From positions 1 to 41,120 of the forward strand of contig CAMDHE010000029.1 of the NCBI GenBank assembly GCA_945898095.1: a DNA stretch of 41,120 nt. Direction: 5' to 3'. A program made the translations under genes and the position numbers. This document shows positions 15,450-35,252 of the stretch, in pieces. Numbering within the stretch: position 1 is the first letter of the stretch; the number at the start of each line of letters is the position of its first letter. The notes below the pieces were generated by a model. That model was given only the letters and a program-made list of their open reading frames with translations. It made no database searches and was not told where the DNA came from. This DNA comes from Roseateles toxinivorans (GTDB taxonomy: Bacteria > Pseudomonadota > Gammaproteobacteria > Burkholderiales > Burkholderiaceae_C).

Positions 15450-15466
15450 ATCGTCCGTTCGGACGC
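15450..15466 (-). promoter_or_regulatory. Palindromic operator copy 1 (flavin oxidoreductase side)
   Basis: The core CGTCCG-TT-CGGACG (15452-15465) is a perfect palindrome around a 2-bp centre. On the minus strand an AACAAT hexamer begins about 30 bases after its centre (15429-15424), giving a predicted transcript start near 15417 and a leader of about 23 bases to the ATG at 15394. It is one of six copies in the window. Confidence 0.6.
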
Positions 15467-15495
15467 TTCGGCTTTCGGTCGGGTCATTGCGATTG

Positions 15496-15512
15496 CTGTT
15501 CAAACGGACGAT
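15496..15512 (+). promoter_or_regulatory. Palindromic operator copy 2 (DUF1254 side)
   Basis: Read on the minus strand the site is ATCGTCCGTTTGAACAG; one half-site (CGTCCG) is intact and the other is weak. On the plus strand AAGAAT begins 30.5 bases after its centre (15534-15539), which would serve the DUF1254 gene. Copies 1 and 2 lie 45 bases apart, centre to centre, in this divergent promoter region. Confidence 0.55.
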
Positions 15513-15579
15513 GCAAGCCCGCGCGTCGGATACAAGAATGATGCGGAGTAGGCCCAATGATCCGGTTAACCATGCCCCC

Positions 15580-16953
15580 ATGATGAAGAAACTCGGTTTA
15601 TGCCTCAGCTTCTGGGCGCTGCTGCTCGGACTGAATCCGGCCAGCGCGCAAGCGCCTGCGCCGAGCGATGCCGAACTGCGCGCGGCCTTCATCTATGCCT
15701 ACCCTTATTACGAGTTCATGTGGCTGCGCGATCAAGCGCTGAATCATGCCGATTCGCTGACCTCCACGAGCTTGAACAAGTTTCGCCATCAGCGCCATCT
15801 CGCCACACCCGCTGATCGCTGGGCCAATGGGCCGATCAATGACACCTTTTATTCGACCGCCTGGCTCGACGTCGGCAAAGCGCCGGTCGTCCTGAGCTTG
15901 CCCGACACTGCTGATCGTTACTATGTGCTGGTGCTGATCGGTGCCGATACGAACAGCTTCGCCTATTTCGGCCGCCGCAGCAGCGGCACCAAGGCGCGCA
16001 AGGTGGCGATCATCGGGCCCGCTTGGCAGGGTGAAATTCCGCCTGCAGATGAGGTCGTTCGGGCCAGCTCGCGTGACCTCTATGTCAACTTGCGTGTGCT
16101 GGTGCGCGATCCGGCCGATCTGACCAACGCCCATCAGGTGCAGAATGGTTTCGGCCTTGTGCCGGTCGCAATCGACGGTCTGGACAGGCCGGACGGTCCC
16201 CGCCAACAGCCTTTGAAGGGTGATGTGGCGCGGATGTTCGACGTCATCAATGAAGCGCTGATCCGCAATCCTCCGCCCGCGGGCGGCACAGCCATGTTGC
16301 AGGGTTTCAAGGCCGTCGGCATTTGCGGTGCTGGCTGTAGTTTCGGCGCACTTGCCCCCGACTTGCAGCAGCGCTGGCGCGAGTTGGTGCCGCCGCTTTT
16401 GAGCCGGCTGAAGACCGCGCTCGATGGGGCGCGCCGCGATGTCATCCGGGTCAATGGCTGGATTCCGTTCCGTTTGCCGCGCAACTTTGCCGCCAATTTC
16501 CCGGTGCGGGCTGGTTCGGCGGCCAATTCGGGCGGCATTTTCGGGCTCGAAGCCGCCGAGGCGGTCTACTTCATGGGCGTGACCGACGGCAATGATGAAA
16601 TCCTCGGTCAGGGACGGAGCTATCGACTGCATTTGCCCGCTGGCGAGCTGCCTGCCGATGCTTTCTGGTCCTTGAGCTTGTACGAATTTCTGCCTGATGG
16701 GCAATATATGGTCGCCAACAAGATCGACCGCTATTCAATCGGCGACCGCACCGAAGGGCTGGTCCGCAATGGCGACGGCAGCCTCGACATCTGGATCCAG
16801 CCTGCGCCGCCAATCGATTCTGCAAAATTGGCCAACTGGTTGCCCAGCCCGCTGGCCCACAAGTTCTACATCAATGCACGCATCTACCAACCCCGCGCCG
16901 AAGTCTTGAAAGCCGAATGGGCGATGCCCAAAGTCGAACGTCAACTCCCTTGA
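15580..16953 (+). CDS. Exported DUF1254/DUF1214 protein
   Basis: The 457-residue protein has a signal peptide (MMKKLGLCLSFWALLLGLNP to about AQA) followed by a DUF1254-like domain (about 45-180; AYPYYEFMWLRD, GPINDTFYSTAWLDVGKAPVVLSLPD, YYVLVLIGADTNSFAYFGRR) and a DUF1214-like domain (about 340-450; YRLHLPAGELPADAFWSLSLYE, IDRYSIGDRTEG, GSLDIWIQ). This pair of domains is widespread in exported bacterial proteins of unknown function. ATG at 15580 is followed by another ATG at 15583; both precede the signal peptide, and no strong ribosome site is seen. It is followed after 23 bases by an alkylsulfatase-like gene, so the two may act in the periplasm on the same compound. Confidence 0.8.
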   Translation: MMKKLGLCLSFWALLLGLNPASAQAPAPSDAELRAAFIYAYPYYEFMWLRDQALNHADSLTSTSLNKFRHQRHLATPADRWANGPINDTFYSTAWLDVGKAPVVLSLPDTADRYYVLVLIGADTNSFAYFGRRSSGTKARKVAIIGPAWQGEIPPADEVVRASSRDLYVNLRVLVRDPADLTNAHQVQNGFGLVPVAIDGLDRPDGPRQQPLKGDVARMFDVINEALIRNPPPAGGTAMLQGFKAVGICGAGCSFGALAPDLQQRWRELVPPLLSRLKTALDGARRDVIRVNGWIPFRLPRNFAANFPVRAGSAANSGGIFGLEAAEAVYFMGVTDGNDEILGQGRSYRLHLPAGELPADAFWSLSLYEFLPDGQYMVANKIDRYSIGDRTEGLVRNGDGSLDIWIQPAPPIDSAKLANWLPSPLAHKFYINARIYQPRAEVLKAEWAMPKVERQLP

Positions 16954-16976
16954 CGCATTCCTTCTCAGGAGCCGCC

Positions 16977-18422
16977 ATGCCCATACGCCCATCGCAATGG
17001 ATGCGATCACTGCAATATGCAGCCATCAGCCTGTTTCTGGCTTGTCCAGCAGCTGCCCATGATGAACCTGTCATTGCGCCCAATGAAGCCGCCAAACTGG
17101 CGCGAGCTGCAGTGATCCGCGAGTATCCGGCGCTGATGCAGGCGATTACAAGGGGCGGCGCCTTCGGTGGCGATTTCTCGGCAGCGATTGCCAACAAGAT
17201 GTACAGCCGCGACGATGCGGCGGCGATCGCTGATGCCAGGGCCAAGCTGAAGGTCGAGCCGCAGGGGCCGCGCAGCTGGCTGTTGCGGCTGCCCTTTGTC
17301 AACATCGCCTTGTTCGAGACCGATGCTGGTCTGGTCCTGATCGATTCCGGCTATGCACCCGCAGGACCGGCGCTGCGCGATGTGATCAAGTCGCTGAGCC
17401 AGCAGCCGATCCACACCATTGTTTTCACCCATTACCACGCTGACCATGCCTGGGGCGCCTGGGCCTTGATGGACATGGGGCCGGGTGGCGGCAAACCGCG
17501 CATCGTCAGCTCGGCGGGCTTCATCACGCAGATGGACCAGGATCTGCTCAGCTACGGCCTGATCGCCCGCAACAATCAACAAGTCGTCGTGCCGCGAAAC
17601 TGGGGCGATGTGCTGCGTCCGGACCTGACTTTCCATGACCGGATCAGCTTGCAGGTCGGGCGCGAGGAATTCGTATTGACGCAGTCGCGCGGCGAGACCG
17701 AGGATCAGCTCTGGGTCAACGTGCCGGGCCGGCGCATCGTCGTCAGCGCCGACTATTACCAGGGTTTCATGCCCAATGCGGGCAATGGCAAGCGGCGCCA
17801 GCGTTACCCGGAGGAATGGGCCTCGGCATTGCGCCAGATGATGGCCTTGAAGCCGCAGCGCTTGCTCAGCATGCATGGCCCGGCGCTGCTGAGCGAGGAA
17901 GAGATCCAGGACAAGCTCGGCAGCCATGCGCAGGCGCTGGAGTCGATTGCAGAGCAGACGCTGGCAGGCCTCAACGCCGGTCTGCGCACCGACCAGGTGA
18001 TCGACCGCATCAAGCTGGCGCCTGCCCTGGCTGGGCGTGAGAATCTGCGCGAGGACTATTCCACCGCCAAGGACATAGCGCGCATGGTGGTCAAGCAATA
18101 CGGCGGCTGGTGGGACGATCTGCCTTCGCATTGGAATCCGGCCCCGCTGTCGGAACAGGGCCGGGTAATCGCCGAACTGGCCGGCGGACCGCGCTTGCTG
18201 ATGAGCAAAGCGATTGCGCTCAGCCGCACCGATTCGGCATTGGCCGCCAGTCTGGCCGACTGGGCCTGGCTGGCTGCGCCTGCAGATGTCGAAGTGCTGC
18301 AGGGCGCGCTGCAGGTCTATGGCGCGCGCATCGGCCGCGACACCACGACCCAGGAAGCGCTGGTCTATATGGAGCATATGGTGCGGTTGAAACTGCAAAT
18401 CGGTCGCGAGACCAGGCCCTGA
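16977..18422 (+). CDS. Exported SdsA1-like metallo-beta-lactamase sulfatase/hydrolase
   Basis: The 481-residue protein starts with a signal peptide ending near residue 27 (CPAAA-H). The metallo-beta-lactamase domain shows LIDSG (121-125) and the zinc motif THYHADH (His152, His154, Asp156, His157). Towards the C-terminus, YGGWWDDLPSHWNPAPLSEQ followed by an ELAGG ... KAIALSRTDSALAASLADWAW stretch resembles the dimerisation domain of class III alkylsulfatases such as SdsA1. The C-terminal sterol-carrier-like domain of SdsA1 is not present, which explains the shorter length. Primary alkylsulfatase activity is plausible, but the HYHADH form is also found in other hydrolases. TCAGGA lies before the ATG. 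It shares an operon with the DUF1254 protein. Confidence 0.75.
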   Translation: MPIRPSQWMRSLQYAAISLFLACPAAAHDEPVIAPNEAAKLARAAVIREYPALMQAITRGGAFGGDFSAAIANKMYSRDDAAAIADARAKLKVEPQGPRSWLLRLPFVNIALFETDAGLVLIDSGYAPAGPALRDVIKSLSQQPIHTIVFTHYHADHAWGAWALMDMGPGGGKPRIVSSAGFITQMDQDLLSYGLIARNNQQVVVPRNWGDVLRPDLTFHDRISLQVGREEFVLTQSRGETEDQLWVNVPGRRIVVSADYYQGFMPNAGNGKRRQRYPEEWASALRQMMALKPQRLLSMHGPALLSEEEIQDKLGSHAQALESIAEQTLAGLNAGLRTDQVIDRIKLAPALAGRENLREDYSTAKDIARMVVKQYGGWWDDLPSHWNPAPLSEQGRVIAELAGGPRLLMSKAIALSRTDSALAASLADWAWLAAPADVEVLQGALQVYGARIGRDTTTQEALVYMEHMVRLKLQIGRETRP

Positions 18423-18441
18423 GTTTGCGTAGCGCTTAGTT

Positions 18442-18469
18442 CGCTCGATCGTGCGATGAGCGTCTTTCT
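18442..18469 (+). terminator. Candidate terminator after the sulfatase-like gene
   Basis: CGCTCGATCG and CGATGAGCG form a stem with one bulge and a TG loop (18442-18462), followed by TCTTTCT. It begins 20 bases after the stop codon. The T-run is interrupted, so termination strength is uncertain. Confidence 0.4.
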
Positions 18470-18522
18470 GATGGGCTGCATCGGCCCAAGCCAGCATTTG
18501 CGGTGATGCAGAGTTGCCGAAT

Positions 18523-18567
18523 ATCGTCTGTTCGGACGTATCAGTTGCTGGCAATGTTGCCTAAATT
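18523..18567 (+). promoter_or_regulatory. Palindromic operator copy 3 with -10-like TAAATT
   Basis: ATCGTCTGTTCGGACGT (18523-18539) contains the core CGTCTG-TT-CGGACG. TAAATT follows at 18562-18567, exactly 39 bases from the first base of the site, the same spacing as at 25348-25392. Over 48 positions the two promoters agree at 39. No good -35 is present, which fits an activator-dependent promoter. The predicted leader to the TauD-like gene is about 75 bases. Confidence 0.7.
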
Positions 18568-18648
18568 CGCGCGGCCTGGGCTGATTGCCGTTCGACAGGC
18601 AAAGGCAATATCAATACTTCAGTTTTTTCAGTTGCAAAGGAGATCACG

Positions 18649-19503
18649 ATGGATCAGGTCAGCCAGCTTTCCGACTGTGGCATTCAATGCACGCCGCTCA
18701 CACCAGCGATCGGTGCCGAACTCAGCAATGTCGACTTGGGCGGGCCGCTGAGCGACGAATCTGTCGCGTTCATTCGACAAGCCTTGCTGGACTGGAAAGT
18801 AATTTTCTTCAGGGACCAGCAGCTCGACACCGAAAAACTCGTCGCTGTCGCAGGCAGGTTCGGAAAACTGGCCCTCCACCCCTTCCTGATCGGCAAGCCC
18901 GACCACCCGGAAGTGCTGGCAATCAGCCGAAATCGCGAGCGGCGTGGCGGGGAAAACCTCTGGCATTCCGATGTGACCTTTATTCCGGCCCCACCTTTGG
19001 GAAGCCTGCTTTATTCCCACGAAATTCCGCCGATCGGTGGCGACACCCTGTTTGCCGACATGAGCGCTGCCTACGATGGTTTGTCGGATGAGGTCAAACA
19101 CAAGATCGAGGGCCGGCAAGCGATCCATGACTTCCGCGCCCATCGCGTGCTGATGCGCAAGGCAGGGGTGGCCGAAGACAAGATTGCCCGATATGAAGCG
19201 CAGTTTCCCCCGACGGCCCATCCAGTCGTACGCACCCATCCTGAAACAGGTCGAAAGCTGATCAACGTCAGCGTCGCATTCACCGAATACATCATCGACA
19301 TGGATCGTTCGGAGTCGGACGCCTTGCTGCAGCACCTGTATGCGCAAGCCAGCATTCCGGAGTACCAGGTCCGCTTCAAATGGACGAAAAACAGTCTGAT
19401 TTTCTGGGATAACCGCGCCACGCAACATTACGCAGTGTCCGACTACTGGCCGGCTGTGCGGACCATGGAGCGCGTCACGATCGAGGGCGACATTCCATGC
19501 TGA
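18649..19503 (+). CDS. TauD/TfdA-family Fe(II)/2-oxoglutarate dioxygenase
   Basis: The 284-residue protein has the family's His-x-Asp in WHSDVTF (His106, Asp108) and the distal iron ligand His260 in NRATQHYAVSDYW, followed by Arg271 and Arg275, one of which should hold 2-oxoglutarate. The family includes taurine dioxygenase, 2,4-D dioxygenase and the alkylsulfatase AtsK; all hydroxylate next to a leaving group. Two sulfatase-type genes nearby make an AtsK-like sulfate-ester cleavage attractive, but carboxylate or ether substrates are not excluded. AAAGGAGA precedes the ATG. Transcription probably begins at the palindrome-linked promoter upstream. It overlaps the following MFS gene by seven bases. 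Confidence 0.88.
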   Translation: MDQVSQLSDCGIQCTPLTPAIGAELSNVDLGGPLSDESVAFIRQALLDWKVIFFRDQQLDTEKLVAVAGRFGKLALHPFLIGKPDHPEVLAISRNRERRGGENLWHSDVTFIPAPPLGSLLYSHEIPPIGGDTLFADMSAAYDGLSDEVKHKIEGRQAIHDFRAHRVLMRKAGVAEDKIARYEAQFPPTAHPVVRTHPETGRKLINVSVAFTEYIIDMDRSESDALLQHLYAQASIPEYQVRFKWTKNSLIFWDNRATQHYAVSDYWPAVRTMERVTIEGDIPC

Positions 19504-20852
19504 AAATTAGCTCCCCGACGCTGCCGGCCCGCAACCGGATGCTGGGCTCGGCCGGATTCGCCTTGCTGATCATGCTCTTGATCCATATGACCAAGACCGT
19601 GGACCGCAACATCATGGGCGTGTTGTTCGAGCCTTTGAAGGCCGAGTTCGGGGTCAGCGACACCTTGCTCGGGTTGGTGGCTGGCGCCATCTTTGGCATC
19701 CTGCATGCGGTTGCCAGCCTCGTACTGGGGCATTTGAGCGACCGGATGAGCCGGGTGAAGTTATTGAGCGCCGCCTGTGTTCTCTGGAGCGGGCTGACCA
19801 TGCTGTGCGGCATGGCGACGAGTTTTTGGCAACTGGCGCTGGCAAGGGCCGGCGTTGCCATGGCAGAAGCAGGCTCGGCCGGAACGGCTGTCCCGCTGAT
19901 TGCCGAGATGTTCCCGCCGAATCGCAGGTCTTTGGCTACCGGCATCTACTTTCTGGGCGCGCCTTTTGGCGTCTTGGTCGGCATCGGCCTGGGTTCCTGG
20001 ATTGCCCAGAACTACGGTTGGCGTGCAGCCTTTTCGCTGGCGGGCTTTCCCGGCCTTTTGCTGGGCTTCTTGCTTTATGTTTGCGTCAGGGAGCCCAAGC
20101 GCAGCGGCCCCGATAGCCCGCAAACGGGAAGTACCGGCTTGCCTGCTCAAAAAGCCTCGCAAGAGGGCATAGTCACTTCGATCAAGGTCTTGCTGACCAA
20201 CCGACCGTACCTGTTTTTGACCCTGTCATGCGCTCTGGCTTCCATTCCTGCCACCGCCTTCGGTACCTGGGGCACCAGCTTCTTGATCCGGTCGCACCAG
20301 CTGTCGCTGCAGCATGCGGGCCTTCTGACCGGACTGATAGGCATCAGTGGCAATGTCCTGGGTACGATATTTTCGGGCTGGCTGATCGACCGGCTGACAA
20401 CAAAAAATCGCGCCTGGCAGATCCGGATCCCGATGCTCGGGCTGTTGCTGGCCACACCGATGGGCCTGCTTTACTTCCTTTGGCCGGCCGACATCATGTG
20501 GCAATTGGGCCGTCTGCCCGTACCGACAGTGATGTTGTTCGGTATATCTTTCGCCTTTTTTACCGGCTGGTGGATAGCACCGGCTTATTCGGCGATCAGC
20601 AACCTGATCGAAGCGGAGCGTCGCGGCTTTGCCACGGCCTTTTTCGGAGTGGCTTTCTCTGCGGTGGGAATGGGACTGGGGCCGCTGATCGTGGGTGCCA
20701 TCAGCGATCTGCTGACACCGGTCAGCGGGGTGGACTCGCTTCGTTATGCGATGGCCATTGCGATTTCCACGACCTTGGTCGCGGTGTGGCTGATGCGGCT
20801 GGCCATCCAGCCTTATCAGCTTGCACTTGAAGCCATTCACGCCAAAGACTGA
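19497..20852 (+). CDS. MFS transporter (Spinster-like)
   Basis: The 451-residue protein has about 12 hydrophobic segments and MFS landmarks: DRNIMGVLFEPLKAEFGVSD in the first helix-loop, GHLSDRMSRVKLL between helices 2 and 3, and GWRAAFSLAGFPGLLLGFLL in the middle, as in Spinster-type transporters. A hydrophilic stretch near residues 195-220 separates the halves. The ATG lies inside the end of the TauD-like gene (ATGCTGA), so they are translationally coupled. It probably moves the dioxygenase substrate or its product; direction is not known. Confidence 0.88.
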   Translation: MLKISSPTLPARNRMLGSAGFALLIMLLIHMTKTVDRNIMGVLFEPLKAEFGVSDTLLGLVAGAIFGILHAVASLVLGHLSDRMSRVKLLSAACVLWSGLTMLCGMATSFWQLALARAGVAMAEAGSAGTAVPLIAEMFPPNRRSLATGIYFLGAPFGVLVGIGLGSWIAQNYGWRAAFSLAGFPGLLLGFLLYVCVREPKRSGPDSPQTGSTGLPAQKASQEGIVTSIKVLLTNRPYLFLTLSCALASIPATAFGTWGTSFLIRSHQLSLQHAGLLTGLIGISGNVLGTIFSGWLIDRLTTKNRAWQIRIPMLGLLLATPMGLLYFLWPADIMWQLGRLPVPTVMLFGISFAFFTGWWIAPAYSAISNLIEAERRGFATAFFGVAFSAVGMGLGPLIVGAISDLLTPVSGVDSLRYAMAIAISTTLVAVWLMRLAIQPYQLALEAIHAKD

Positions 20853-20890
20853 CGAACCCGACAATCCCGGCGACCGGGTCTGGCTGCGAC

Positions 20891-22933
20891 TCAGACCTCC
20901 AGCGCCAGCAGCGTAGCCTGCTCGATCGCGCGATGGGCATCGAGTTGATCGGCGGCATCGGCGCCACCGATGACTGCGGTTGCGATGCCTCGCCGCTGCA
21001 ATTCAGGTAGCAGCCTTCGTTCTGATTCTTGACCGGCGCAGATGATCAGCTGGTCGATTGCCAGGCATTGCGCGACGCCATCCACTCGCAGATGCAGACC
21101 CTGCTGGTCGAGGTACAAATAGTCAACACCACCGAGCATCTGCACATTGCGGCGCTTGAGCAAATTGCGGCGAATCCAGCCGGTGCTCGGTGCCAGATCC
21201 TGGCCCAGCTTGCCCGGGCGCCGTTGCAGCAGCCAGATCTGTCGCTCCGAAGGCGCCAAATCCGGCGCACAGAGGCCGCCGCGTTGGAGGAATTCCGCGT
21301 CGATACCCCAAGTTGATTGATAGCTGGCCAGCGTTGGCGGCAGGCCCGGATCGCTGAGCCATTCGGCGATGTCGAAGCCGATGCCACCCGCGCCAATGAT
21401 GGCGATGTTGCGACCCATCGATTGCCTTCCCTGGGCCAGCGCCTGCGCATAGCCGAGCACCCGTGGATCGCCTTGCAGACCCGGCAGATCGAGCTCGCGC
21501 GCCCGCACGCCGGTCGCCAGCATGACCTGCTCGAAGCCCTGCAGCTGCCCGGCGTTTGGCGCCCGATTCAGGTGCACTTGAACGCCATGTATTGCCAGCT
21601 GGCGCTGGTAGTAGCGCAGCGTCTGGGCATATTCCTCCTTGCCCGGGATCTGCAGGGCCAGCAGGAACTGTCCGCCCAGGGCCGGTCCGGCCTCGAACAA
21701 TGTCACCTGGTGGCCGCGCATTGCTGCAGTTGCGGCGAAGGCCAGCCCGGCCGGGCCACCGCCGACCACCGCCAGGCGACGCTTGATAGCTGCCGGGCGC
21801 AACGGCCTCAGGGTTTCAAAGCCGGCGCGGGGATTGACCAGACAAGTCACCGGTTGTTGAAGGAAAACCCGATCGAGACAGGCCTGGTTGCAGGCGATGC
21901 AGGTATTGATCTCGTCGCTGCGGGCGCTGAGCGCTTTGACTGCCCAGTCCGGGTCGGCCAGCAGCGGCCGCGCCAGCGCGACCAGATCAGCCTGGCCATC
22001 CGCCAGCAACGCTTCGGCGGTCTCGGGCATGGCGATCCGGTTGCTGGCAATCACCGGTATCTTCAGGACCTGTTTCAAGCGCCAGGTCAAAGCGGCGAAC
22101 GGTGCGCGAGGCACCAGCGAGGCCACGGTGGGCACACGCGATTCATGCCAACCCGCGCCACTATTGAGCAGGTTGATTCCTGCTTGCTGCAAGGCCAGCG
22201 CCAGCTCGATCACCTCGTCCCAACTGCAGCCCCCGTCGACCAGATCAATCAATGAAATGCGGAACAGGAGCAATTGCGTCGGCAGCACCGCGCGAACGGC
22301 CTTGACCAACTCCAGCGCAAAGCAACGCCTGGCTGCTGCGCTGCCGCCCCAACGATCGCTGCGTTGATTGCTGCGCGGCGCGAGGAACTGATTGATCAGA
22401 TAACCTTCAGCGCCCATCAACTCGACGCCGTCATAGCCCGCTTGTGCTGCCAATGCGGCGGTGTTCGCGTAGCAGTCGATCAACTGCAGAATTTCAGCCT
22501 CGCTGAGTTCGCGCGGCGCCTTCTTGCCGAGCGGCGAGGCGATGCTCGACGGGGCTACGCCGCCTGTGGCGTAATCATTGCGGCCGATATGCAGGGCTTG
22601 CAAGGCGATCAACGCGCCTTCTTGATGCACGGCCTCGCAGAGCTTGCGGTGTGGCTCGAGCTGATCGACTCTCTGCAAGCTCGCCTGCTGTGCTGCAGCG
22701 GGATGGCCCAGCGCCATGTCGTCGACGCCGAAGCCACCGGTGATCATCAACGCGGCGCCGCCGCGCGCACGTTCTACGTAAAAAGCGCTGAGTCGCTCGA
22801 AACCATCATCGAGTTCCTCGAGTCCGGTATGCATCGAGCCCATCACGATGCGGTTACGCAGCGTCAGCCCGCCCACCTGCAGCGGCTGGCCCAGCAGCGG
22901 GAAACGTTGTCGCGCCGACCGCGAAGGGCTCAC
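20891..22933 (-). CDS. fadH: 2,4-Dienoyl-CoA reductase (NADPH)
   Basis: The 680-residue protein agrees with E. coli FadH throughout as I recall it: IVMGSMHTGLEE near the N-terminus, GAEGYLINQF with active-site Tyr177, NSGAGWHESR with His263, the 4Fe-4S motif with Cys345, Cys348, Cys352 and Cys364 (CIACNQACLD ... CLVNPRAG), IPGKEEYAQTLRYY and the NADPH region GAGGIGFDIAEWLS. FadH reduces 2,4-dienoyl-CoA so unsaturated chains can complete beta-oxidation. The start is GTG at 22933, overlapping the sulfatase stop (GTGA), so translation is coupled. It ends 38 bases from the convergent MFS gene. Confidence 0.93.
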   Translation of the reverse strand: MSPSRSARQRFPLLGQPLQVGGLTLRNRIVMGSMHTGLEELDDGFERLSAFYVERARGGAALMITGGFGVDDMALGHPAAAQQASLQRVDQLEPHRKLCEAVHQEGALIALQALHIGRNDYATGGVAPSSIASPLGKKAPRELSEAEILQLIDCYANTAALAAQAGYDGVELMGAEGYLINQFLAPRSNQRSDRWGGSAAARRCFALELVKAVRAVLPTQLLLFRISLIDLVDGGCSWDEVIELALALQQAGINLLNSGAGWHESRVPTVASLVPRAPFAALTWRLKQVLKIPVIASNRIAMPETAEALLADGQADLVALARPLLADPDWAVKALSARSDEINTCIACNQACLDRVFLQQPVTCLVNPRAGFETLRPLRPAAIKRRLAVVGGGPAGLAFAATAAMRGHQVTLFEAGPALGGQFLLALQIPGKEEYAQTLRYYQRQLAIHGVQVHLNRAPNAGQLQGFEQVMLATGVRARELDLPGLQGDPRVLGYAQALAQGRQSMGRNIAIIGAGGIGFDIAEWLSDPGLPPTLASYQSTWGIDAEFLQRGGLCAPDLAPSERQIWLLQRRPGKLGQDLAPSTGWIRRNLLKRRNVQMLGGVDYLYLDQQGLHLRVDGVAQCLAIDQLIICAGQESERRLLPELQRRGIATAVIGGADAADQLDAHRAIEQATLLALEV

Positions 22934-24426: not shown

Positions 24427-24463
24427 TCAGGGCTCCTCTTCTATCTTCAATAATCAGTTTGGA

Positions 24464-25249: not shown

Positions 25250-25347
25250 ATTGGCTCTCAGTTCATTCAATCAATCGCCTGCCCATGCTGGAGGCATGTT
25301 CAGTGAATCTCGATGTTGCCATCGTCGTCCATGGAGAATCGGCGAAC

Positions 25348-25392
25348 ATCGTCTGTTTGGACGTGTCAAATGCAGCCGATGCTGCCTAAATT
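25348..25392 (+). promoter_or_regulatory. Palindromic operator copy 4 with -10-like TAAATT
   Basis: ATCGTCTGTTTGGACGT (25348-25364) is followed by TAAATT at 25387-25392, with the same 39-base spacing as copy 3. The start codon ATG at 25400 lies seven bases after TAAATT, so the predicted transcript begins at or next to the A of ATG. It probably drives the long plus-strand operon 25400-32587. Confidence 0.7.
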
Positions 25393-25399
25393 CTCCCCT

Positions 25400-26188
25400 A
25401 TGCACAATTCCAACAGCAATCAGCAAGTTCAGCCCCGCGTCGTGCTGGTCACCGGGGGCAGCAAGGGCATCGGACGCGGTATCGCCGAGGGCTTTCTGGC
25501 AATGGGCGATCGGGTGGTCGTCTGTGCCAGGCAGGAACCCGAATCCCTGCCGTCCAGCGGCGCGGCCTCGGCCGAATTCATGGCCTGTGATGTGAAGGAT
25601 CTGGTCGCAGTTCAAAGCTTGATTGCCGCAATCGTGCAGCGCCATGGTCGGCTCGATGTGCTGGTCAACAATGCTGGCGGCAGTCCGTCGGCCGCCGCGG
25701 CCACCGCATCGCCGCGTTTTCACGAGAGCGTGATCCGCTTGAATCTGCTCGCGCCTTTCAATCTTGCACAGGCTGCCAATGCCCAGATGCAGCAGCAGGA
25801 TCAGGGCGGCGTGATCATCTTCATCGGCAGCATCAGCGCTTTGCGGCCTTCGCCCGGAACTGCGGCTTATGGTGCGGCCAAGGCGGCGGTGCTGAGTCTG
25901 GTCGGATCGCTGGCGGTTGAATGGGCGCCCAAGGTTCGGGTGGTGGCGGTCAGTCCGGGTCTGGTGCAGACCGAACAGTCGGCAATGCATTACGGCAACG
26001 AGGCCGGCATCGCTGCGGTTGCGGCGACGATACCGGCCGGCCGCATGGCTTTGCCGGCTGACATTGCACAGGCCTGCATCTATGTGGCTTCTGCGGCAGC
26101 TTCCTATGTCAGCGGCAGCAATTTGCTGCTGCATGGCGGGGGTGAGAAACCGGCCTTTCTCGATGCCGCCCAGTCGGGCAGCCACTGA
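25400..26188 (+). CDS. Short-chain dehydrogenase/reductase, probably leaderless
   Basis: The 262-residue protein is a classical SDR: VLVTGGSKGIGRGIA (15-29), CDVKD (63-67), NNAGG (90-94), Ser144 or Ser146 in FIGSISAL, and YGAAK (Tyr157, Lys161). The catalytic residues are intact, unlike the SDR at 4640. ATG at 25400 is preferred: the frame is open upstream, but those codons would lie in the operator and promoter. No ribosome site precedes it, and the -10-like TAAATT ends seven bases before it, suggesting a leaderless message. It may oxidise a hydroxyl of the substrate or a 3-hydroxyacyl-CoA. It is the first gene of a six-gene operon with acyl-CoA dehydrogenases. Confidence 0.85.
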   Translation: MHNSNSNQQVQPRVVLVTGGSKGIGRGIAEGFLAMGDRVVVCARQEPESLPSSGAASAEFMACDVKDLVAVQSLIAAIVQRHGRLDVLVNNAGGSPSAAAATASPRFHESVIRLNLLAPFNLAQAANAQMQQQDQGGVIIFIGSISALRPSPGTAAYGAAKAAVLSLVGSLAVEWAPKVRVVAVSPGLVQTEQSAMHYGNEAGIAAVAATIPAGRMALPADIAQACIYVASAAASYVSGSNLLLHGGGEKPAFLDAAQSGSH

Positions 26189-26201
26189 GCGCGGGCCGGC
26201 G

Positions 26202-27371: not shown

Positions 27372-27450
27372 TTGCTGCAGGCTGAATGGCGGCTGAATAA
27401 TCTGCGTCCAGGCCCATCCAAGGCCGTTTTCGAACCGAGAGACAAGCGAG

Positions 27451-28569: not shown

Positions 28570-29744
28570 GCGATCAATTCAGGATTGAAGTCAGCGACTG
28601 GCTGGAGGCAAATTGCCCGGCTTCGATGCGGCAGCCGATCAGCGCCGAGCAGATGGTCTGGGGCGGGTCGCGGCTGAAATTCAGCAGCGAGGACCAGCGT
28701 CTATGGTTCGAGCGCATGCGCGACCGCGGCTGGTTCGCGCCGGACTGGCCGCGTGAATATGGCGGCGGCGGACTCGATGCCGGCCAGGCCCATGTGTTGG
28801 AGCAAGAGATGCAACGCCTCGGTTGCCGCCAGCCGCAGTTCAACCTGGGCGTCTGGATGCTCGGGCCGGTCTTGCTGGAACTGGGCAGCGAAGCTCAAAA
28901 ACGCCAGCATCTGCCGCCGATGATGGCCGGCCAGGTGCGTTGGTGCCAGGGTTTCAGCGAACCCAATGCCGGTTCCGATCTGGCCAGCTTGAAAACCTCG
29001 GCGATCGAAGATGGCGATGACTTCATAGTCAACGGCGCCAAGATCTGGACCAGTTATGGCGATCAGTCGGATTGGATGTATGCCCTGGTGCGCACCGACG
29101 TCAAGGCCAAGAAACAGCAGGGCATCAGCTTCCTGCTGATCGACATGAACAGCCCCGGCGTCATGGTCAAGCCGATCGAGCTGATCAGCGGCAAATCGAG
29201 TTTTTGTGAAGTCTTTTTCGACAATGTGCGGGTGCCGCGCCTGCAACTGGTCGGTGCGTTGAACGATGGCTGGACCGTGGCGAAAAAGCTGCTCCAGCAT
29301 GAGCGTTCGGCGATGTCCAAGTTCAGCGCAGGAGCGGCGCCTTCGCATGACCCCCTGGCTGTCGCCAGGCCTTATCTGTTCGACGACCAAGGTCGCTTGC
29401 GCGAGCCGGTCTGGCGCGATCGGCTTGCCGCCCTGATGATGGATTCCCGGGCCTTTGCCTTGTCGGCGCAGCGCCTGCATGAGCAGGCCATGGCGGGGCA
29501 GGATTGCAACGGGCTGGCGGCGATCATGAAGCTGGTCCAGACCGAGCAGGAAGTTGCCAAATATGAGTTGCTGCAGCAAGTCATGGGTCAGCGCGGGCTG
29601 AGCTGGGAAGGCGATGAGTTCAGTCGCGATGAACATGACATCGCGCGACTCTGGCTGCTGACCAAGACTTACACCATCTCCGGCGGCTCGTCGGAGATTC
29701 AACTGAACGTGATTGCCAAGCGCGTACTTGGCCTGCCGGGCTGA
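28566..29744 (+). CDS. Acyl-CoA dehydrogenase, likely catalytic (alpha) subunit
   Basis: The 392-residue protein has the full set of family features: GFSEPNAGSDLASLKTSA (129-146) for FAD contact, NGAKIWTSYGDQSDW (156-170), catalytic Glu246 in LQHERSAMSK and the C-terminal TISGGSSEIQLNVIAKRVLGLP. It starts with GTG at 28566, overlapping the MBL gene stop (GTGA). The next gene encodes a second, degenerate acyl-CoA dehydrogenase directly after the stop (TGA-ATG). In actinobacterial steroid side-chain degradation such adjacent pairs form alpha2beta2 enzymes (for example ChsE4-ChsE5) in which only one subunit keeps the base. The same arrangement is inferred here. Confidence 0.88.
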   Translation: MSDQFRIEVSDWLEANCPASMRQPISAEQMVWGGSRLKFSSEDQRLWFERMRDRGWFAPDWPREYGGGGLDAGQAHVLEQEMQRLGCRQPQFNLGVWMLGPVLLELGSEAQKRQHLPPMMAGQVRWCQGFSEPNAGSDLASLKTSAIEDGDDFIVNGAKIWTSYGDQSDWMYALVRTDVKAKKQQGISFLLIDMNSPGVMVKPIELISGKSSFCEVFFDNVRVPRLQLVGALNDGWTVAKKLLQHERSAMSKFSAGAAPSHDPLAVARPYLFDDQGRLREPVWRDRLAALMMDSRAFALSAQRLHEQAMAGQDCNGLAAIMKLVQTEQEVAKYELLQQVMGQRGLSWEGDEFSRDEHDIARLWLLTKTYTISGGSSEIQLNVIAKRVLGLPG

Positions 29745-30887
29745 ATGATGACGCTGCTATTGAATCAGGATGAATCCATGCTGCGCGACAGCGCCCAGGC
29801 CTTCTTGTCTGCTGAAGCGCCGGTGACTGCGATGCGGCGCTTGCGTGACAGCGAAGATGCAACCGGTTTCGATCCGGAGCTTTGGCAACGCATGGTCGAG
29901 ATGGGCTGGTCTGGCATGCTGCTGCCCGAGCATTGGGGCGGTCTTGATTTCGGTTTCAAGGGCATGGGCGCATTGTTCGAACAATGCGGTCGTTATTTGA
30001 CCCCCAGCCCCTTGCTCGCCACTGTGGTGCTCGGCGGCGGCTTGCTGCTGCGCGCCGGCAGCCAGGCGCAATGCCAGCGCTGGTTGCCCCTGCTGGCCGA
30101 GGGCAAGGCCTGGTTCGCCCTGGCATTGGAAGAGCTGCCTCGCCATGACCCGCGCCAGGTCGCTTGCAACGCCACAAGAACCGCTACGGGATGGCAACTC
30201 GATGGTGAAAAATGGCTGGTGCTCGACGGACATATCGCCCAGCAGTTGATCGTGGTGGCCAGAACCTCGGGCTTGCCCGGGCAGGAACATGGCTTGAGTC
30301 TGTTCCTGCTCGATCCGGCAACTGCCGGTGTGCAGCTCAGCCGCAGCCGCATGATCGACAGCCGCAATGCGGCGAGGCTGCAGCTCAGCGCGGTACAGAT
30401 CCCGGCCGAGTCTTTGCTCGGCGCGCTGGATGGCGGTTTCGAGCCGCTCGACGCAGTGCTCGATCAGGCCAGAGTCTGTCTGGCGGCTGAAGGCCTGGGC
30501 TTGTTGCGCGAAGTGTTCGAGCGCACGCTCGATTATCTGAAGCAGCGGGTGCAATTCGATGTGGTGATCGGCAGTTTCCAGGCCTTGCAGCACCGGGCTG
30601 CGCGGCTACATGTCGAGCTCGAACAATGCCAGAGCGCAGTCGCTGCGGCATTGGCTGCGTTGCAGGACGATCCGGTGCAAGCCGCACAGCTGGCCAGCCT
30701 GGCCAAAGCCAAGGTCAGCAAGCTCAGCGAATTGCTGCTCAACGAGGCGGTGCAACTGCATGGCGGCATCGGCGTCACCGATGAGCTCGACATCGGACTC
30801 TTTCTTAAACGCGGCCGGGTGATCCAGCAGACTTTCGGCGACGCGGTTTTTCACAACGACCGTTATGCGCGGCTGAACGGTTTCTGA
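29745..30887 (+). CDS. Acyl-CoA dehydrogenase-like protein, likely non-catalytic (beta) subunit
   Basis: The 380-residue protein has the acyl-CoA dehydrogenase fold but has lost key sites. Where the partner has SEPNAGSDLA it reads LEELPRHDPRQVA, and the expected catalytic Glu is replaced: LDQARVCLAAEG has Ala242 where the partner has Glu246 in QHERS. The C-terminal QLHGGIGVTDELDIGLFLKRG segment is of the usual type and supports FAD or dimer contacts. It starts directly after the partner's stop, and a second ATG at 29748 is an alternative. This fits the beta subunit of an alpha2beta2 dehydrogenase. Confidence 0.85.
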   Translation: MMTLLLNQDESMLRDSAQAFLSAEAPVTAMRRLRDSEDATGFDPELWQRMVEMGWSGMLLPEHWGGLDFGFKGMGALFEQCGRYLTPSPLLATVVLGGGLLLRAGSQAQCQRWLPLLAEGKAWFALALEELPRHDPRQVACNATRTATGWQLDGEKWLVLDGHIAQQLIVVARTSGLPGQEHGLSLFLLDPATAGVQLSRSRMIDSRNAARLQLSAVQIPAESLLGALDGGFEPLDAVLDQARVCLAAEGLGLLREVFERTLDYLKQRVQFDVVIGSFQALQHRAARLHVELEQCQSAVAAALAALQDDPVQAAQLASLAKAKVSKLSELLLNEAVQLHGGIGVTDELDIGLFLKRGRVIQQTFGDAVFHNDRYARLNGF

Positions 30888-30898
30888 AGCAGGCACAG

Positions 30899-32587
30899 AT
30901 GACTGATGATTTCGATGCCAGACTGGCCCTGATCCAGTCCCAAATGACGGCGCCAGGCGCGCCCTTCGAGCTCGAATGGGTGGAGCAGGGCGGGCAGAAG
31001 CTGGCCGCTTATGCGCGCGCCTGCAAAACTTTGCCCGAACTGATTCAATCGGGCCGGGTCCATGGTGACAAACCCTTCATCGTCTATCAAGGCGATAACT
31101 GGAGTTTCACGCGCTTTTTTGCCCAGGTCGATGCCCTGAGCGCCAGGCTGCGTGAGGACTTTCATCTGCAGCCGGGCGACCGAGTGGCGATTGCGATGCG
31201 CAACCGGCCTGAATGGGCGGTGGCCTTTGCTGCTGTGGCCTTGCTGGGCGCCGTGCCTGCACCCTTGAACAGTTTCGGTGTGCGTGATGAATTGCTGGCC
31301 GGGTTGCGCGACATCGAGCCCAAGCTTTTGTTCGTCGATGCCGAGCGCTTGCAGCGTTTGTCGGGTGATCTGGAAACGCTGGGCTTCCCGGTGGTGGTGG
31401 TCGGCAGCGCTGTTGCGCCGGAGCTGTCCTACGAGGAACTTTGTTCGCGTCAGGCCGCGCCAGCGATCTTGCCCGAACTCGGCCCGGAAGATCCGGCCTT
31501 GATCTTGTTTACTTCGGGCGCCACCAGTCAGCCCAAAGGTGTGCTGTCAGGGCAGCGGGCGCTTTGTCAGGCGCTCTGCAATATCGACTATATCGGCGCT
31601 TGTGCCGCCATGAGTTCGCCCGCTGCGCTGCAGACCGTCATGCAACGCGGCCTGCTGCCAACGGTGCTGACCGCCGTGCCCCTTTTTCATGTCAGCGGTC
31701 TGCATGCCCAATTGCTGGCCAGCTTGCGCAACGGCCGGCGGCTGGTTTTCATGCACCGCTGGGACCCGCAGACCGCCTTGAGCTTGATGCGCGAGCATCA
31801 AGTGACCCAATTCAATGGGGCACCGTCGATGGTGCTGCAGTTGCTGGCCGAGCCTGGTTTTGACGACAAGGCGGTGGTCGGCAATCTGTCGGGCCTCGGT
31901 TTTGGCGGTGCCGGCCTGCCGCAACGCGCAATCGACGCCGTGCTCGGCCGGGTGAAACCCTCTTTGTCGGGTGTCGGCTACGGCCTGACCGAATCGAATG
32001 GCGTCGGCTCCGCAGTGGCAGGAGACGGTTTTGTGCAGCGCCCGACCAGTTCGGGCCTGATCTCGCCGATCATGCAATTGCGCTTGATGGAGTTGGACGG
32101 CAGCGAAGCTGCAAGAGGCCAGCCCGGCGAAGTCTGGCTGCGCGGCGTCAGCCTGATGCAGGGCTATTGGCGCCAGCCAGAAGCAACCCGAACCGCGCTG
32201 CATGACGGTTGGTTCCGCAGCGGTGACATCGGTGTTCTTGACGCCGCCGGCTATCTGAGCATCGTCGACCGGATCAAGGATGTGATCAACCGCATGGGTG
32301 AAAAAATCGCCGCCGCCGAGATCGAGTCCTGCCTCTTGCAGCACCCGGAAGTCAGCGAAGCGGCGGTGTTCGCCCAGCCCGACCTGCAGACCGGCGAAGC
32401 CGTCGCAGCGGTCGTGGTGCTCCGCGAGCACAGCCTTGTCGACGCGGAAGCATTGCGTCGCCATGTTGCCGGCCGATTGGCCGCCTACAAGGTGCCGCTG
32501 ATCATCCACCTGCGCTTCGAAGCGCTGCCGCGCAACCCGACTGGCAAGCTGCTCAAACAGCAGATCAAGCAGCAATATCTGGGCTGA
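30899..32587 (+). CDS. Acyl-CoA synthetase / AMP-dependent acid-CoA ligase
   Basis: The 562-residue ANL-superfamily protein would activate a carboxylic acid to its CoA thioester. Motifs are the phosphate loop LILFTSGATSQPKGV (201-215), PLFHVSGLHAQLLA, GYGLTESNGVG for the adenylate, WFRSGDIGVLDAAGYL, DRIKDVINRMGEKI at the domain hinge, and the C-terminal acylating lysine in NPTGKLLK. The substrate is not readable but the operon of three acyl-CoA dehydrogenases suggests a long, branched or cyclic acid. It begins 11 bases after the beta-subunit gene and ends the plus-strand operon that starts at 25400. Confidence 0.9.
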   Translation: MTDDFDARLALIQSQMTAPGAPFELEWVEQGGQKLAAYARACKTLPELIQSGRVHGDKPFIVYQGDNWSFTRFFAQVDALSARLREDFHLQPGDRVAIAMRNRPEWAVAFAAVALLGAVPAPLNSFGVRDELLAGLRDIEPKLLFVDAERLQRLSGDLETLGFPVVVVGSAVAPELSYEELCSRQAAPAILPELGPEDPALILFTSGATSQPKGVLSGQRALCQALCNIDYIGACAAMSSPAALQTVMQRGLLPTVLTAVPLFHVSGLHAQLLASLRNGRRLVFMHRWDPQTALSLMREHQVTQFNGAPSMVLQLLAEPGFDDKAVVGNLSGLGFGGAGLPQRAIDAVLGRVKPSLSGVGYGLTESNGVGSAVAGDGFVQRPTSSGLISPIMQLRLMELDGSEAARGQPGEVWLRGVSLMQGYWRQPEATRTALHDGWFRSGDIGVLDAAGYLSIVDRIKDVINRMGEKIAAAEIESCLLQHPEVSEAAVFAQPDLQTGEAVAAVVVLREHSLVDAEALRRHVAGRLAAYKVPLIIHLRFEALPRNPTGKLLKQQIKQQYLG

Positions 32588-32621
32588 GCAAGCCAGACGG
32601 GAATTGTCGGGCGCCTGAATT

Positions 32622-32656
32622 AAAAAGGGCTGCAAGGGTTTGATCCCCTGCAGCCC
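32622..32656 (-). terminator. Rho-independent terminator for the TonB receptor gene
   Basis: GGGCTGCAAGGG (32627-32638) and CCCCTGCAGCCC (32645-32656) form a long GC-rich stem around TTTGAT. Read on the minus strand it is followed by TTTTTA, the T-run of an intrinsic terminator, 24 bases after the receptor stop. Confidence 0.8.
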
Positions 32657-32659
32657 CTC

Positions 32660-32682
32660 AAGCCCTGCGGGCTTGCTGTTTT
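32660..32682 (+). terminator. Candidate terminator for the acyl-CoA synthetase operon
   Basis: AAGCCC-TGC-GGGCTT forms a short hairpin followed by GCTGTTTT, on the plus strand and touching the end of the convergent receptor gene. The adjacent larger hairpin at 32627-32656 would also form in this transcript. Confidence 0.45.
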
Positions 32683-35059
32683 ACCAGCGGTAGTTGAGGG
32701 TCACGCCCATCGTGCGTGGGTCGCTCCAGTAGCCCATCTGGAAGAAGCCCGAAACGTCCATCTGGGCGATCATCGTGTGTTGGTTGGTCACGTTCTTGAC
32801 CCAGAATGCGGCTTCGGCTTCACCCTTGCCGCCGAGCTTGATGCCGGTCATCTGCAACTTCACGTTCAAAGTCTTGGTCGCTGGCAGCAGCGACTCGGCA
32901 GCCGTATTGCCGACGGTTGCATTGGCTGCCGTGGCGCTGATCTGGCCAGGGTAGCCATAGCGGTCCGCCACATACTTGAAGTCAACCATCGCGTTCAGGT
33001 TTGCACCCGAACTCAAGGTCGCCAGGCGGCTGTCGAGGTTCAGGTTGAAGGTGTGCTTGGGCGCACCTGAAACCACCGTGTTGCTCGCCGCATCGATTGG
33101 AGCGCCAGTTGGGCTGGTGGTCAGATATTGACCAAACTTCGCATCGGTATAGCCGTAGGTGAGGGTGCCTCGCAGGTCACGTGTGATCCTCGCCGCTGCA
33201 TCGATTTCCAGGCCCTGGGTACGCAATTTCCCGGCGTTGATGATCGTGGCGTTGATCGAGCCAGCCGGCAAATAGCTGACCTGATAGTTGCTCACGTCGG
33301 TACGGAACAGATTCGCGCTGATCTGTCCCTTGCCGTCCCAGATCGACGATTTCACGCCGACTTCAAGAACTTTCGAGGTCTCAGGCATAAACGGAATATT
33401 CGGGCCGCTGACACCGGCAATGACCGGTGCTTCAGCCGGGAAACCGCCACTCTTGAAGCCCTGAGCGTAGCGACCGAAGATATTCGTATCGGCGTTCAGG
33501 CGGAACAGCAGGTTGAAACTCGGTGTGAACTTCGAGAAGGTGGCCGAAGCGTCCGTGTTGACTGTCAAAGGATTGGTGCCTTGAACGAAGTTCGCATCGG
33601 TCTTGTAGCGCCAGGATGTTCCACCCTTGATTTCCTGGGTATAACGGCCGCCCAATGTTGCAGTCCACGACTTGTCGATGTCCCAGTCGACCTGGCCATA
33701 AGCGGCTTTGGAGTCGCTGCTGACACGGAAGTTTGCAGCCTGATAACCGATCATCTGGGGCGCGAAGGTCAGCATCGTGCCCGATTGATTCTGCAAGGTT
33801 GTGCCTTCGTCGCTATAGAAATACAAGCCTGCGACATAGCGCAGCGGGCCTGAATTGCCGATCAGCTGGAATTCATTGGAGAAGGCCGAATAGTCGGTAT
33901 CGCGCCGGCCCTGGAAGATCAGATCGGGTGTTCCGTCATAGTCACCCGCATCCGCATAAATCATCTTGCGCAAAGAGCCGGTGTACTTCAGAGTGTTGTC
34001 GGGGTTGATCTTGTACTCGACCTTGACCGAATTGCCGGTGGTGTCAGCGCGCTGGTAGCCAGCGATGCTGCCGCCAGCCACTGACGTTGGATAGCCGTTG
34101 ATGACATATTGCTTCATGCCGACACCGATGCCGGTTGAAGGCAGGTAGCAGACCGTACCGACCTTGTACAAGCAGGTCGGATTCTGGAATGCGTACGTGG
34201 TGCCGCCAATCAGGGTGTTGAGTGGGTAGAGCGATCCATAGCCTGTGGACGAAATCAGTGAACCCGCCGGCATCGTCTCATTGATCCGGCTGATGTCAGC
34301 CGCGAAATCGATCGTCAAATCCTTGCTCGCTTCGAGGCGCGCTGCGATACGAGCGGCCTTGCGGTTCTTGTCACCCCAGGCCTTGCCGTTCGGGTTGGTG
34401 ATGAAGCCGTCCTGGGTTTCGTTGCGTGCTGCGATCGACAGGCTGAGGTTGCCCATCTTGGCCAAGTCGACGCTGATGCGCTCGAGCTTGCGGTTGAAGT
34501 TGCCGAGTTCGACGCCGACATTGCCGCCAAAGATACCGGAAGGCTTGCGGGTGACGAAGTTGATCGCGCCGGCTTCGGTGTTCTTGCCGAACAAGGTGCC
34601 TTGCGGGCCGCGCAGCGCTTCAAGTTGCTCGATGTCGACCAGGTCAAACAGCGCGCCCATGTTCTTGCCGACGAAGACGCCGTCGACATACAGGCCGACT
34701 GAAGGATCAGCCCAGATCGAAGGCTGACCTGAGGAAATACCCCGCATGCCGACTGCGGCGATCAAGCCTGAAACCGGCGTGTTGCTCATATTCAAATTAG
34801 GAATCACGCCGCTGAGGCCTTTCGGTCCCTCGATGCCGCGGGCTTCGAGTTGTTCGCCTGAGATGGCGGTAACCGCCAAAGGCACGTCAAGGATTTTCTC
34901 CTTGCGCTTCTGGGCCGTGATGACGACGGTCTCGAGCTTGTCGGTGGTCTGACTCGCATTATTTTCGCCGGCGGCAACTGCGACCGAGCCGTAGATCAAG
35001 CCGATCGCCAATGGAAGCAGCTTCACAGCCAGCTTTGACTCACAATGTGGGAACTTCAT
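32681..35059 (-). CDS. TonB-dependent outer-membrane receptor
   Basis: The 792-residue protein has a signal peptide (to about residue 30, VAVAA-G), a TonB-box-like ETVVITA (43-49) followed by QKRKEKILDVPLAVTAIS, a plug domain (about 55-170; VGMRGISSGQPSIWADPSVG and LRGPQGTLFGKNTEAGAINF) and a beta-barrel ending in a terminal aromatic residue (NYRW). This group is typical of receptors for hydrophobic carbon sources in proteobacterial degraders rather than siderophores, but that is a family-level impression. ATG at 35059 has AAGGAGA upstream; the frame is open further, through the promoter. Palindrome copy 5 lies about 90-107 bases before the start, linking the receptor to the catabolic units. 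It ends at a strong terminator. Confidence 0.92.
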   Translation of the reverse strand: MKFPHCESKLAVKLLPLAIGLIYGSVAVAAGENNASQTTDKLETVVITAQKRKEKILDVPLAVTAISGEQLEARGIEGPKGLSGVIPNLNMSNTPVSGLIAAVGMRGISSGQPSIWADPSVGLYVDGVFVGKNMGALFDLVDIEQLEALRGPQGTLFGKNTEAGAINFVTRKPSGIFGGNVGVELGNFNRKLERISVDLAKMGNLSLSIAARNETQDGFITNPNGKAWGDKNRKAARIAARLEASKDLTIDFAADISRINETMPAGSLISSTGYGSLYPLNTLIGGTTYAFQNPTCLYKVGTVCYLPSTGIGVGMKQYVINGYPTSVAGGSIAGYQRADTTGNSVKVEYKINPDNTLKYTGSLRKMIYADAGDYDGTPDLIFQGRRDTDYSAFSNEFQLIGNSGPLRYVAGLYFYSDEGTTLQNQSGTMLTFAPQMIGYQAANFRVSSDSKAAYGQVDWDIDKSWTATLGGRYTQEIKGGTSWRYKTDANFVQGTNPLTVNTDASATFSKFTPSFNLLFRLNADTNIFGRYAQGFKSGGFPAEAPVIAGVSGPNIPFMPETSKVLEVGVKSSIWDGKGQISANLFRTDVSNYQVSYLPAGSINATIINAGKLRTQGLEIDAAARITRDLRGTLTYGYTDAKFGQYLTTSPTGAPIDAASNTVVSGAPKHTFNLNLDSRLATLSSGANLNAMVDFKYVADRYGYPGQISATAANATVGNTAAESLLPATKTLNVKLQMTGIKLGGKGEAEAAFWVKNVTNQHTMIAQMDVSGFFQMGYWSDPRTMGVTLNYRW

Positions 35060-35149
35060 TCCGTTGTCTCCTTGTTTGATATGAAAATGATCCAAGTCAT
35101 GCTTGTCTCGATAAGGCCTGTGCATTTTCGGACTGTGGCTTTTCCCAAC

Positions 35150-35166
35150 ATCGTCTAAAAGGACTA
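35150..35166 (-). promoter_or_regulatory. Palindromic operator copy 5 (TonB receptor side)
   Basis: On the plus strand the site is ATCGTCTAAAAGGACTA, with one good half-site and one weaker. On the minus strand GAAAAT begins 29.5 bases after its centre (35129-35124), giving a predicted start near 35117 and a leader of about 58 bases to the receptor ATG. Confidence 0.5.
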
Positions 35167-35235
35167 AGTGCAAATCGGCAACGCCGGTGGACCGCAATCC
35201 GTACCTTCTTGTTTCACTTTCAGGCTCGCCCGCCA

Positions 35236-35252
35236 TAGTCCCATCAGACGAT
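35236..35252 (+). promoter_or_regulatory. Palindromic operator copy 6 (thiolase-like operon side)
   Basis: On the plus strand the site is TAGTCCCATCAGACGAT; its reverse complement ATCGTCTGATGGGACTA matches the consensus. GAAAAT begins exactly 30.5 bases after its centre (35274-35279), giving a predicted start near 35286 and a leader of about 45 bases. Copies 5 and 6 lie 85 bases apart in the divergent region. Confidence 0.55.

Follow-up and report, generated by a model that had tools for sequence, protein, structure and literature searches.

The window analysed here, a stretch of 41,120 nt that makes up the entire contig C29 of the Roseateles toxinivorans genome (4.71 Mb), carries several catabolic gene units and raises the question of whether they are controlled together, and by which regulator. 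An earlier note on this DNA had proposed that six copies of one palindrome tie these units into a regulon, with the site at a class-II activator position and no regulator known for it. Based on Pfam searches, the window encodes an SDR, three ACADs, an MBL-fold protein, an acyl-CoA ligase, a crotonase, an Ltp2-like thiolase, and a ChsH2-MaoC-type protein, together with a TonB receptor, two Oxidored_FMN enzymes, a sulfatase, an alkylsulfatase-type protein, TauD, and MFS proteins. The closest locus to the window (L046; 98% in the MBL protein) is from a Burkholderiales MAG. Throughout, tes, scd, and ksh names are assignments by homology and gene order.

Comparison with relatives showed a longer palindrome of 20 bp, CATCGTCC-NNNN-GGACGATG (written out in full, CATCGTCCNNNNGGACGATG), which was scored using a symmetric 20-bp matrix trained on the relatives' loci. 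The six stretches reported earlier are all present at their coordinates, and the proposed core of CGTCYG half-sites around a 2-bp centre was correct, its axis lying within 0.5 base of the centre given before, although conservation reaches beyond this core, over 20 bp. Five of the six are full boxes (scores 17.7–25.6), whereas the copy at 15496-15512 is a half-site only (3.3). When searched literally with up to three mismatches, the earlier consensus found three of the six (0.14 expected; 0 of 100 shuffles reached three) and missed the other three. The features are as follows, with -10 distances in bases from the box axis.

15449..15468, minus strand: box for the flavin oxidoreductase (Oxidored_FMN) gene at 13271-15394 (minus strand); box score 17.7, -10 score 6.8 at 29.5
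15424..15429, minus strand: -10 hexamer AACAAT of the flavin oxidoreductase promoter
15494..15513, plus strand: degenerate, doubtful half-site preceding the DUF1254 gene; box score 3.3, with half CGGACGATG intact and the other half spoiled
15534..15539, plus strand: -10-like AAGAAT, 30.5 from the axis, preceding the DUF1254/alkylsulfatase-type unit
18522..18541, plus strand: box for the TauD-MFS unit; box score 19.2, -10 score 4.8 at 30.5
18562..18567, plus strand: -10 hexamer TAAATT of the TauD-MFS unit
25347..25366, plus strand: box for the SDR-ACAD-MBL-ACAD-ACAD-ligase genes; box score 20.5, -10 score 4.8
25387..25392, plus strand: -10 hexamer TAAATT of the SDR promoter, with an in-frame ATG at 25400, 7 nt on
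35149..35168, minus strand: box for the TonB-dependent receptor gene at 32681-35059 (minus strand); box score 25.1, -10 score 6.0 at 29.5
35124..35129, minus strand: -10 hexamer GAAAAT of the TonB-dependent receptor promoter
35234..35253, plus strand: box for the Ltp2-like thiolase and ChsH2-MaoC-type genes; box score 25.6, -10 score 7.0 at 30.5
35274..35279, plus strand: -10 hexamer GAAAAT of the Ltp2-like/ChsH2-MaoC-type promoter
38689..41086, minus strand: aldolase, acetaldehyde dehydrogenase, and hydratase genes (Pfam; tesG-F-E type, named by homology)

The last three genes share 82–84% identity with steroid-cluster genes of Comamonas testosteroni. All six -10 hexamers that had been claimed were found, 29.5–30.5 bases from the axis. 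The sites had also been placed in gaps upstream of genes; the longest ORFs extend over those at 15450, 25348, and 35150-35252, which lie upstream only if later ATG starts are used (15394 minus, 25400 plus, and 35059 minus); these are the likely starts. At a cut-off of 14, the window contained six box matches vs. none with the reversed matrix, the sixth (31078-31097, score 16.0) being a box-like sequence within the acyl-CoA ligase ORF that is probably due to chance. A spaced core, ATCGTCYNNNNGRAC, recovered 6/6 window sites and gave 22 rows in the whole genome vs. 2 in the reversed control. Two other patterns were discarded: the core CGTCYGNNYRGACG with one mismatch was useless (177 genome rows vs. 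851 in the reversed control), and ATCGTC-N6-GACGAT with two mismatches gave 1460 rows (control: 232), many of which are probably codon runs.

The earlier note expected a whole-genome scan to find the site near related catabolic genes. Using the strict pattern CATCGTCYNNNNRGACKA, we found 14 rows at 12 distinct places, all 12 of which are on C9, C29, or C55, contigs that make up 3.0% of the genome bases (C9 and C55 were singled out by their box matches). For this pattern, the refuting outcome named in the earlier note, matches as frequent in unrelated genes as in catabolic promoters, did not occur. Allowing one mismatch added 25 rows, 9 on these three contigs and 16 elsewhere; thus, the looser pattern is not specific. 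C9 carries 11 boxes scoring at least 16, and a 20-kb stretch of C55 carries 3, with none in the reversed-box control on either. In the stretches scored, C34 had no distinct box and C44 had two (15.6 and 16.7). Five genes on C55 have homologues in the C. testosteroni steroid region; in the part of its ORFs that was scanned, a LysR gene adjoins amidase-like genes. Two boxes on C9, at C9:8308 (L148:8308-8327) and C9:26042 (L149:6042-6061), are identical over 20 bp with nearly identical flanking bases, which suggests a recent promoter duplication.

A linked regulator had also been predicted. No regulator gene was found among the window ORFs scanned with Pfam, and C29 ends with the window; the candidates are two TesR/TeiR-like LuxR proteins encoded on contig C9.

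C9 16005-17204, minus strand: LX1, a GerE protein
C9 61671-62978, plus strand: LX2, a GerE protein

The genes on C9 (69 kb) include those for a KshA_C Rieske protein, FAD dehydrogenases, CoA-transferases, a BphC-type dioxygenase, ACADs, and thiolases, and this content marks the contig as a 9,10-seco-type steroid cluster. Among all 62 of its called ORFs scanned with Pfam (three as pieces), LX1 and LX2 were the only helix-turn-helix (HTH) regulators and the remaining DNA-binding-type matches were antitoxins. Toxin-antitoxin-type pairs lie amid the steroid genes (L148:15123-15867 and L149:2202-2884), GNAT (weak, below cut-off) with a TacA1-like protein and PIN with a FitA-like protein.

Both LX proteins end in a GerE HTH (38.0 bits for LX1 and 26.7 bits for LX2; Pfam cut-off 23.5) and thus belong to the LuxR/GerE family. 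They are 36% identical overall, with 76% identity in the HTH and 27% elsewhere, and an alignment of the LX family gave the same picture (mean identity 0.69 in the HTH vs. 0.39 in the rest). LX2 directly follows an scdJ-type thiolase at the end of a tesB-tesR-like cluster, where a TesR ortholog would be expected; the gene order around its counterpart is the same in C9, in C. testosteroni (contig C26), and in the relative G140, and the published cluster order also ends in tesR (excerpts of PMC13101464). Given this place and the 62% identity that it shares with the tesR-position gene of C. testosteroni ATCC 11996, LX2 is likely the TeiR/TesR ortholog. Boxes precede the tesR-type operon in all three genomes (C9:59178; C26:139646; L190:13897 in G140) and LX1 has a box of its own upstream (C9:17320), so positive feedback would be expected. 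Of 30 LX loci (3.0–4.2 kb each), 16 contain a box scoring at least 14, compared to three reversed-box matches in all; in these 16, the box lies no more than 130 bp downstream of LX in seven and 151–333 bp upstream in five.

A structural model of LX2 (mean pLDDT 73.9, pTM 0.49) can be read, at the level of domains, as a GAF-like domain, a long helix, a PAS-like domain, and the HTH. In Foldseek, E-values of 2e-7 to 1e-5 were obtained for chains of phytochrome, DhaR, phosphodiesterase-GAF, and VqmA, and whole-chain TM was low. A second LX subgroup was observed at L160, L162-L164, and L166-L169 (Aromatoleum, Azoarcus, Thauera, and one MAG), with a different recognition helix, ..SRNTxRCQLRxxFAKTGVTRQTEL..; its eight loci contain no box scoring at least 14, and this subgroup may read another site.

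In C. testosteroni ATCC 11996, the boxes are concentrated in the steroid-gene region. Contig C26 (239 kb, of which 21 kb [L096] belonged to the matrix training set) has steroid-gene homologues at 52–159 kb, and its 12 distinct boxes scoring at least 16 are all located at 59.7–158.9 kb, with none in the reversed-box control (2 rows at a laxer combined cut-off). These boxes precede a tesB-type gene (155305), the SDR (91303), an ltp2-like gene (69819), and kshA (113915), and the one at 139646 precedes the operon whose last gene occupies the tesR position. Another (59666) is flanked by a flavin-reductase (tesA2-type) operon and an FAD-dehydrogenase (tesH/I-type) operon that run divergently, and one (91947) is within a gene. 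According to excerpts of PMC6895838, TesR is required for induction of tesB-tesR, tesA1-tesG, and tesA2-ORF18 in C. testosteroni.

To place the box and LX in a broader context, 50 genomes were drawn from 80 loci chosen by a linked catabolic gene, after exclusion of short contigs and some close relatives. A full-length LX homologue was present in 49/50 (best E ≤5.4e-63), and at least four strict rows were found in 47/50; because the 50 genomes were picked by a gene of a similar pathway, this co-occurrence partly reflects the pathway rather than the regulator. In the exception to LX presence (G048), the match is only partial (4.2e-19); among the loci of the 50, L123, which is from this genome, alone lacks a site above 13. 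Four loci outside the 50, on contigs of 4.5–9.5 kb, lack one too. The three genomes below four strict rows are G014 (2), G020 (3), and G048 (2, at one place). There are up to 10 LX matches per genome (the maximum of the 50 being G049, L124, Pandoraea terrae), and 24 of the 49 LX-positive genomes have a single match, each still with at least four strict rows. The two Steroidobacteraceae, G014 and G020, have 5 and 7 LX matches, and their few strict rows count against the association. Steroidobacteraceae loci L065, L075, and L078 carry the box variant CTCGTCTGTTTGGAC, and the operator may have drifted in this family. Across the relatives' loci, 245 matches scored above 16 vs. 8 with the reversed matrix, but the matrix was trained on these loci; the strict counts in the R. 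toxinivorans genome and in the 370 genomes described below, and most of C26, are more nearly independent.

Among 370 class-level genomes, a strict match occurred in 112, and more than four rows were found only in G000 (14) and G140 (9), both of which are LX-positive. Four genomes without LX reach four strict matches, which counts against the association, and together with the 112 these indicate that single matches mean little. At E 1e-30, LX was detected in G000, G140, G618, and G644. The match in G618 (E 4e-79) has one TGA inside the aligned stretch; only one weak box (16.5) lies in the 20 kb around it and two strict rows lie elsewhere. No box was found at the examined loci of G644 (LX 31%, E 6e-38) or G251 (partial LX). 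These three genomes also count against the association. In 250 order-level genomes, LX was present in 4 (partial in G251) and another strict pattern in 9, with two or more places of that pattern only in G000 and G140. In G277, LX is present with no strict row, and boxes precede a tesB-type gene and other catabolic genes.

Conservation of the box upstream of individual genes varied. SDR homologues carry it within 300 bp upstream in 21/21 testable cases (0 in the reversed-box control), and TonB receptor homologues in 6/7, the six being 34–46% identical. Counting against a TesR/TeiR operator are Ltp2 homologues other than that of C. testosteroni (1/7 testable with a box within 300 bp), OYE homologues (1/6 testable), and TauD (0/1). 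An alkylsulfatase-type homologue in G140 (L189) has boxes at 0.15 and 0.34 kb on its upstream side; for a DUF1254 homologue in the same genome (L188), the upstream distance is 1.7 kb.

The distance between box and -10 is fixed. The word.A.AAT occurs 30.5 bases from the axis in 59 of 221 distinct boxes, and in 0–13 at every other distance from 10.5 to 49.5. A -10 score of at least 3 was reached by 179/221 boxes at 30.5±1 vs. 64/221 at 40.5±1; both the word and the -10 matrix were derived from many of these same sites, so it is the peak, and not the score, that carries the argument. In oriented sites, xAxAAT was the sole other conserved element, located at the same place for either orientation of the 17-mer (74 rows one way and 101 the other; of 320, 61 ambiguous rows and 84 without a called gene were excluded). 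If the -10 hexamer is taken to occupy -12 to -7, the axis falls at -42.5, a slight correction of the earlier estimate of about -43 that leaves a class-II location. As in a class-II box, the axis keeps this distance from the -10 in place of a -35 element: at normal spacing, four of the six TTGACA positions matched in 12 of 179 promoter directions (-10 at exactly 30.5), and none matched better. The nearest ATG is 5–9 nt past the -10 in 24 of 114 strong promoter directions, and the SDR message, with similar ones in many relatives, is probably leaderless. Strict-pattern specificity and the recurrence of the -10 at 30.5 in relatives support a regulon under a predicted class-II activator, and the regulon spotted in the earlier note is real.

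Taken with the regulator data, the palindrome is most likely the operator of TesR/TeiR-type LuxR-family activators, which would use it as a class-II activator box. A dimer with a GerE HTH would bind the 20-bp box, which would span about -52 to -33, the site of a -35 element, with its axis at about -42.5. The bound dimer would then recruit sigma-70 RNA polymerase, in class-II fashion, to a weak -10 (.A.AAT) that has no recognisable -35. As the signal, the GAF- and PAS-like domains at the N-terminus would sense a steroid or a steroid-CoA intermediate.

Other proteins could be imagined on such a site. A Crp/Fnr-family class-II activator reading TCGTC-N6-GACGA would share half-site spacing and class-II location with CRP sites, but the axis is 30.5 bases from the -10, i.e., at -42.5 vs. 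-41.5 for CRP, and the scanned ORFs of C9 and the window include no such protein; we regard this reading as very improbable. The LX paralogs may instead share the box and split roles, the window's main binder being LX1 or another paralog rather than the tesR-type LX2. The two LX genes here, the up to 10 matches per genome elsewhere, the contrast between a similar HTH and a divergent remainder in LX1 and LX2, and the box upstream of LX1 all fit such a split; because genomes with a single LX match keep at least four strict rows, one LX can suffice, and we regard the split as unlikely.

A repressor operator (TetR/KstR- or EdcR-like, or LuxR-type) that blocks polymerase at the -35 region is very unlikely. 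A palindrome covering this region fits a repressor too, and there are precedents in the TetR-type KstR/KstR2 of actinobacterial steroid regulons, in EdcR for estrogen genes, and in the LuxR- and TetR-type repressors reported for the C. testosteroni hydroxysteroid dehydrogenase gene, the LuxR-type one in the strain of TeiR itself, which counts against the activator (all from partial sources). However, Pfam scans of the 62 C9 ORFs and of the window ORFs covered revealed no TetR gene, promoters without recognisable -35 elements look activator-dependent, and a single fixed spacing in both 17-mer orientations suits an activator. KstR homologs are, in addition, described as absent from bile-acid-degrading Proteobacteria in excerpts of PMC8399759, and the EdcR palindrome, as given in a partial source, is a different sequence that overlaps the -10.

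With TesR/TeiR-type activation as the preferred reading, its likeness to known systems can be specified. The lux box is 20 bp long with a class-II axis at about -42.5, and the promoters described here share with it a GerE HTH regulator, a 20-bp palindrome, and an axis near -42.5; unlike the lux box, the box here has the CATCGTCC half, another sequence, and the GAF- and PAS-like sensor of LX2 differs from the acyl-homoserine-lactone domain of LuxR. VqmA is a PAS-GerE receptor and was matched by the LX2 model (best E 1.2e-5), but whole-chain TM is 0.18–0.24 on the query, VqmA has no GAF-like domain, and its ligand is another. In Actinobacteria, KstR and KstR2 unite scattered steroid-catabolic operons through one palindrome, as here, although they are TetR repressors of another phylum. 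As for TeiR/TesR of C. testosteroni, LX2 is its likely ortholog and the box precedes the tesB-type gene of the cluster reported to be TesR-dependent (partial source), whereas R. toxinivorans has two paralogs and its regulon includes DUF1254, alkylsulfatase-type, TauD, MFS, and TonB-receptor genes. Reviews, including excerpts of PMC8399759, describe TeiR as a polar membrane kinase, which differs from our reading and counts against it. According to the same excerpts, the steroid cluster of Pseudomonas stutzeri Chol1 contains two TeiR-like genes, and cholate use is delayed when one of them is deleted (unpublished there).

No TesR/TeiR operator was recognised in the literature searched, which lies outside the primary TeiR papers, and none appears in the consulted portions of PMC6678751, PMC8700777, PMC13101464, PMC6895838, PMC8399759, and PMC5062160; its novelty as a described site is therefore provisional. 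Excerpts of PMC8399759 state that little is known of how Proteobacteria regulate bile-acid degradation, and excerpts of PMC6895838 report that tesR-like genes occur in C. testosteroni alone.

With an operator defined, the regulator can be tested directly and steroid regulons can be read from genomes, and the box and regulator are potential parts for steroid biosensors. The box also ties the DUF1254, alkylsulfatase-type, TauD, and TonB receptor genes, whose roles are unclear, to steroid use. We tentatively suggest that one operator and one GAF-PAS-LuxR receptor family could govern aerobic steroid catabolism in Beta- and Gammaproteobacteria, with paralogs reporting different steroids or ring intermediates and with TeiR acting as a conventional DNA-binding steroid receptor, not a membrane kinase. 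If so, these paralogs, often several per genome, would combine similar DNA readers and divergent sensors on one common box.
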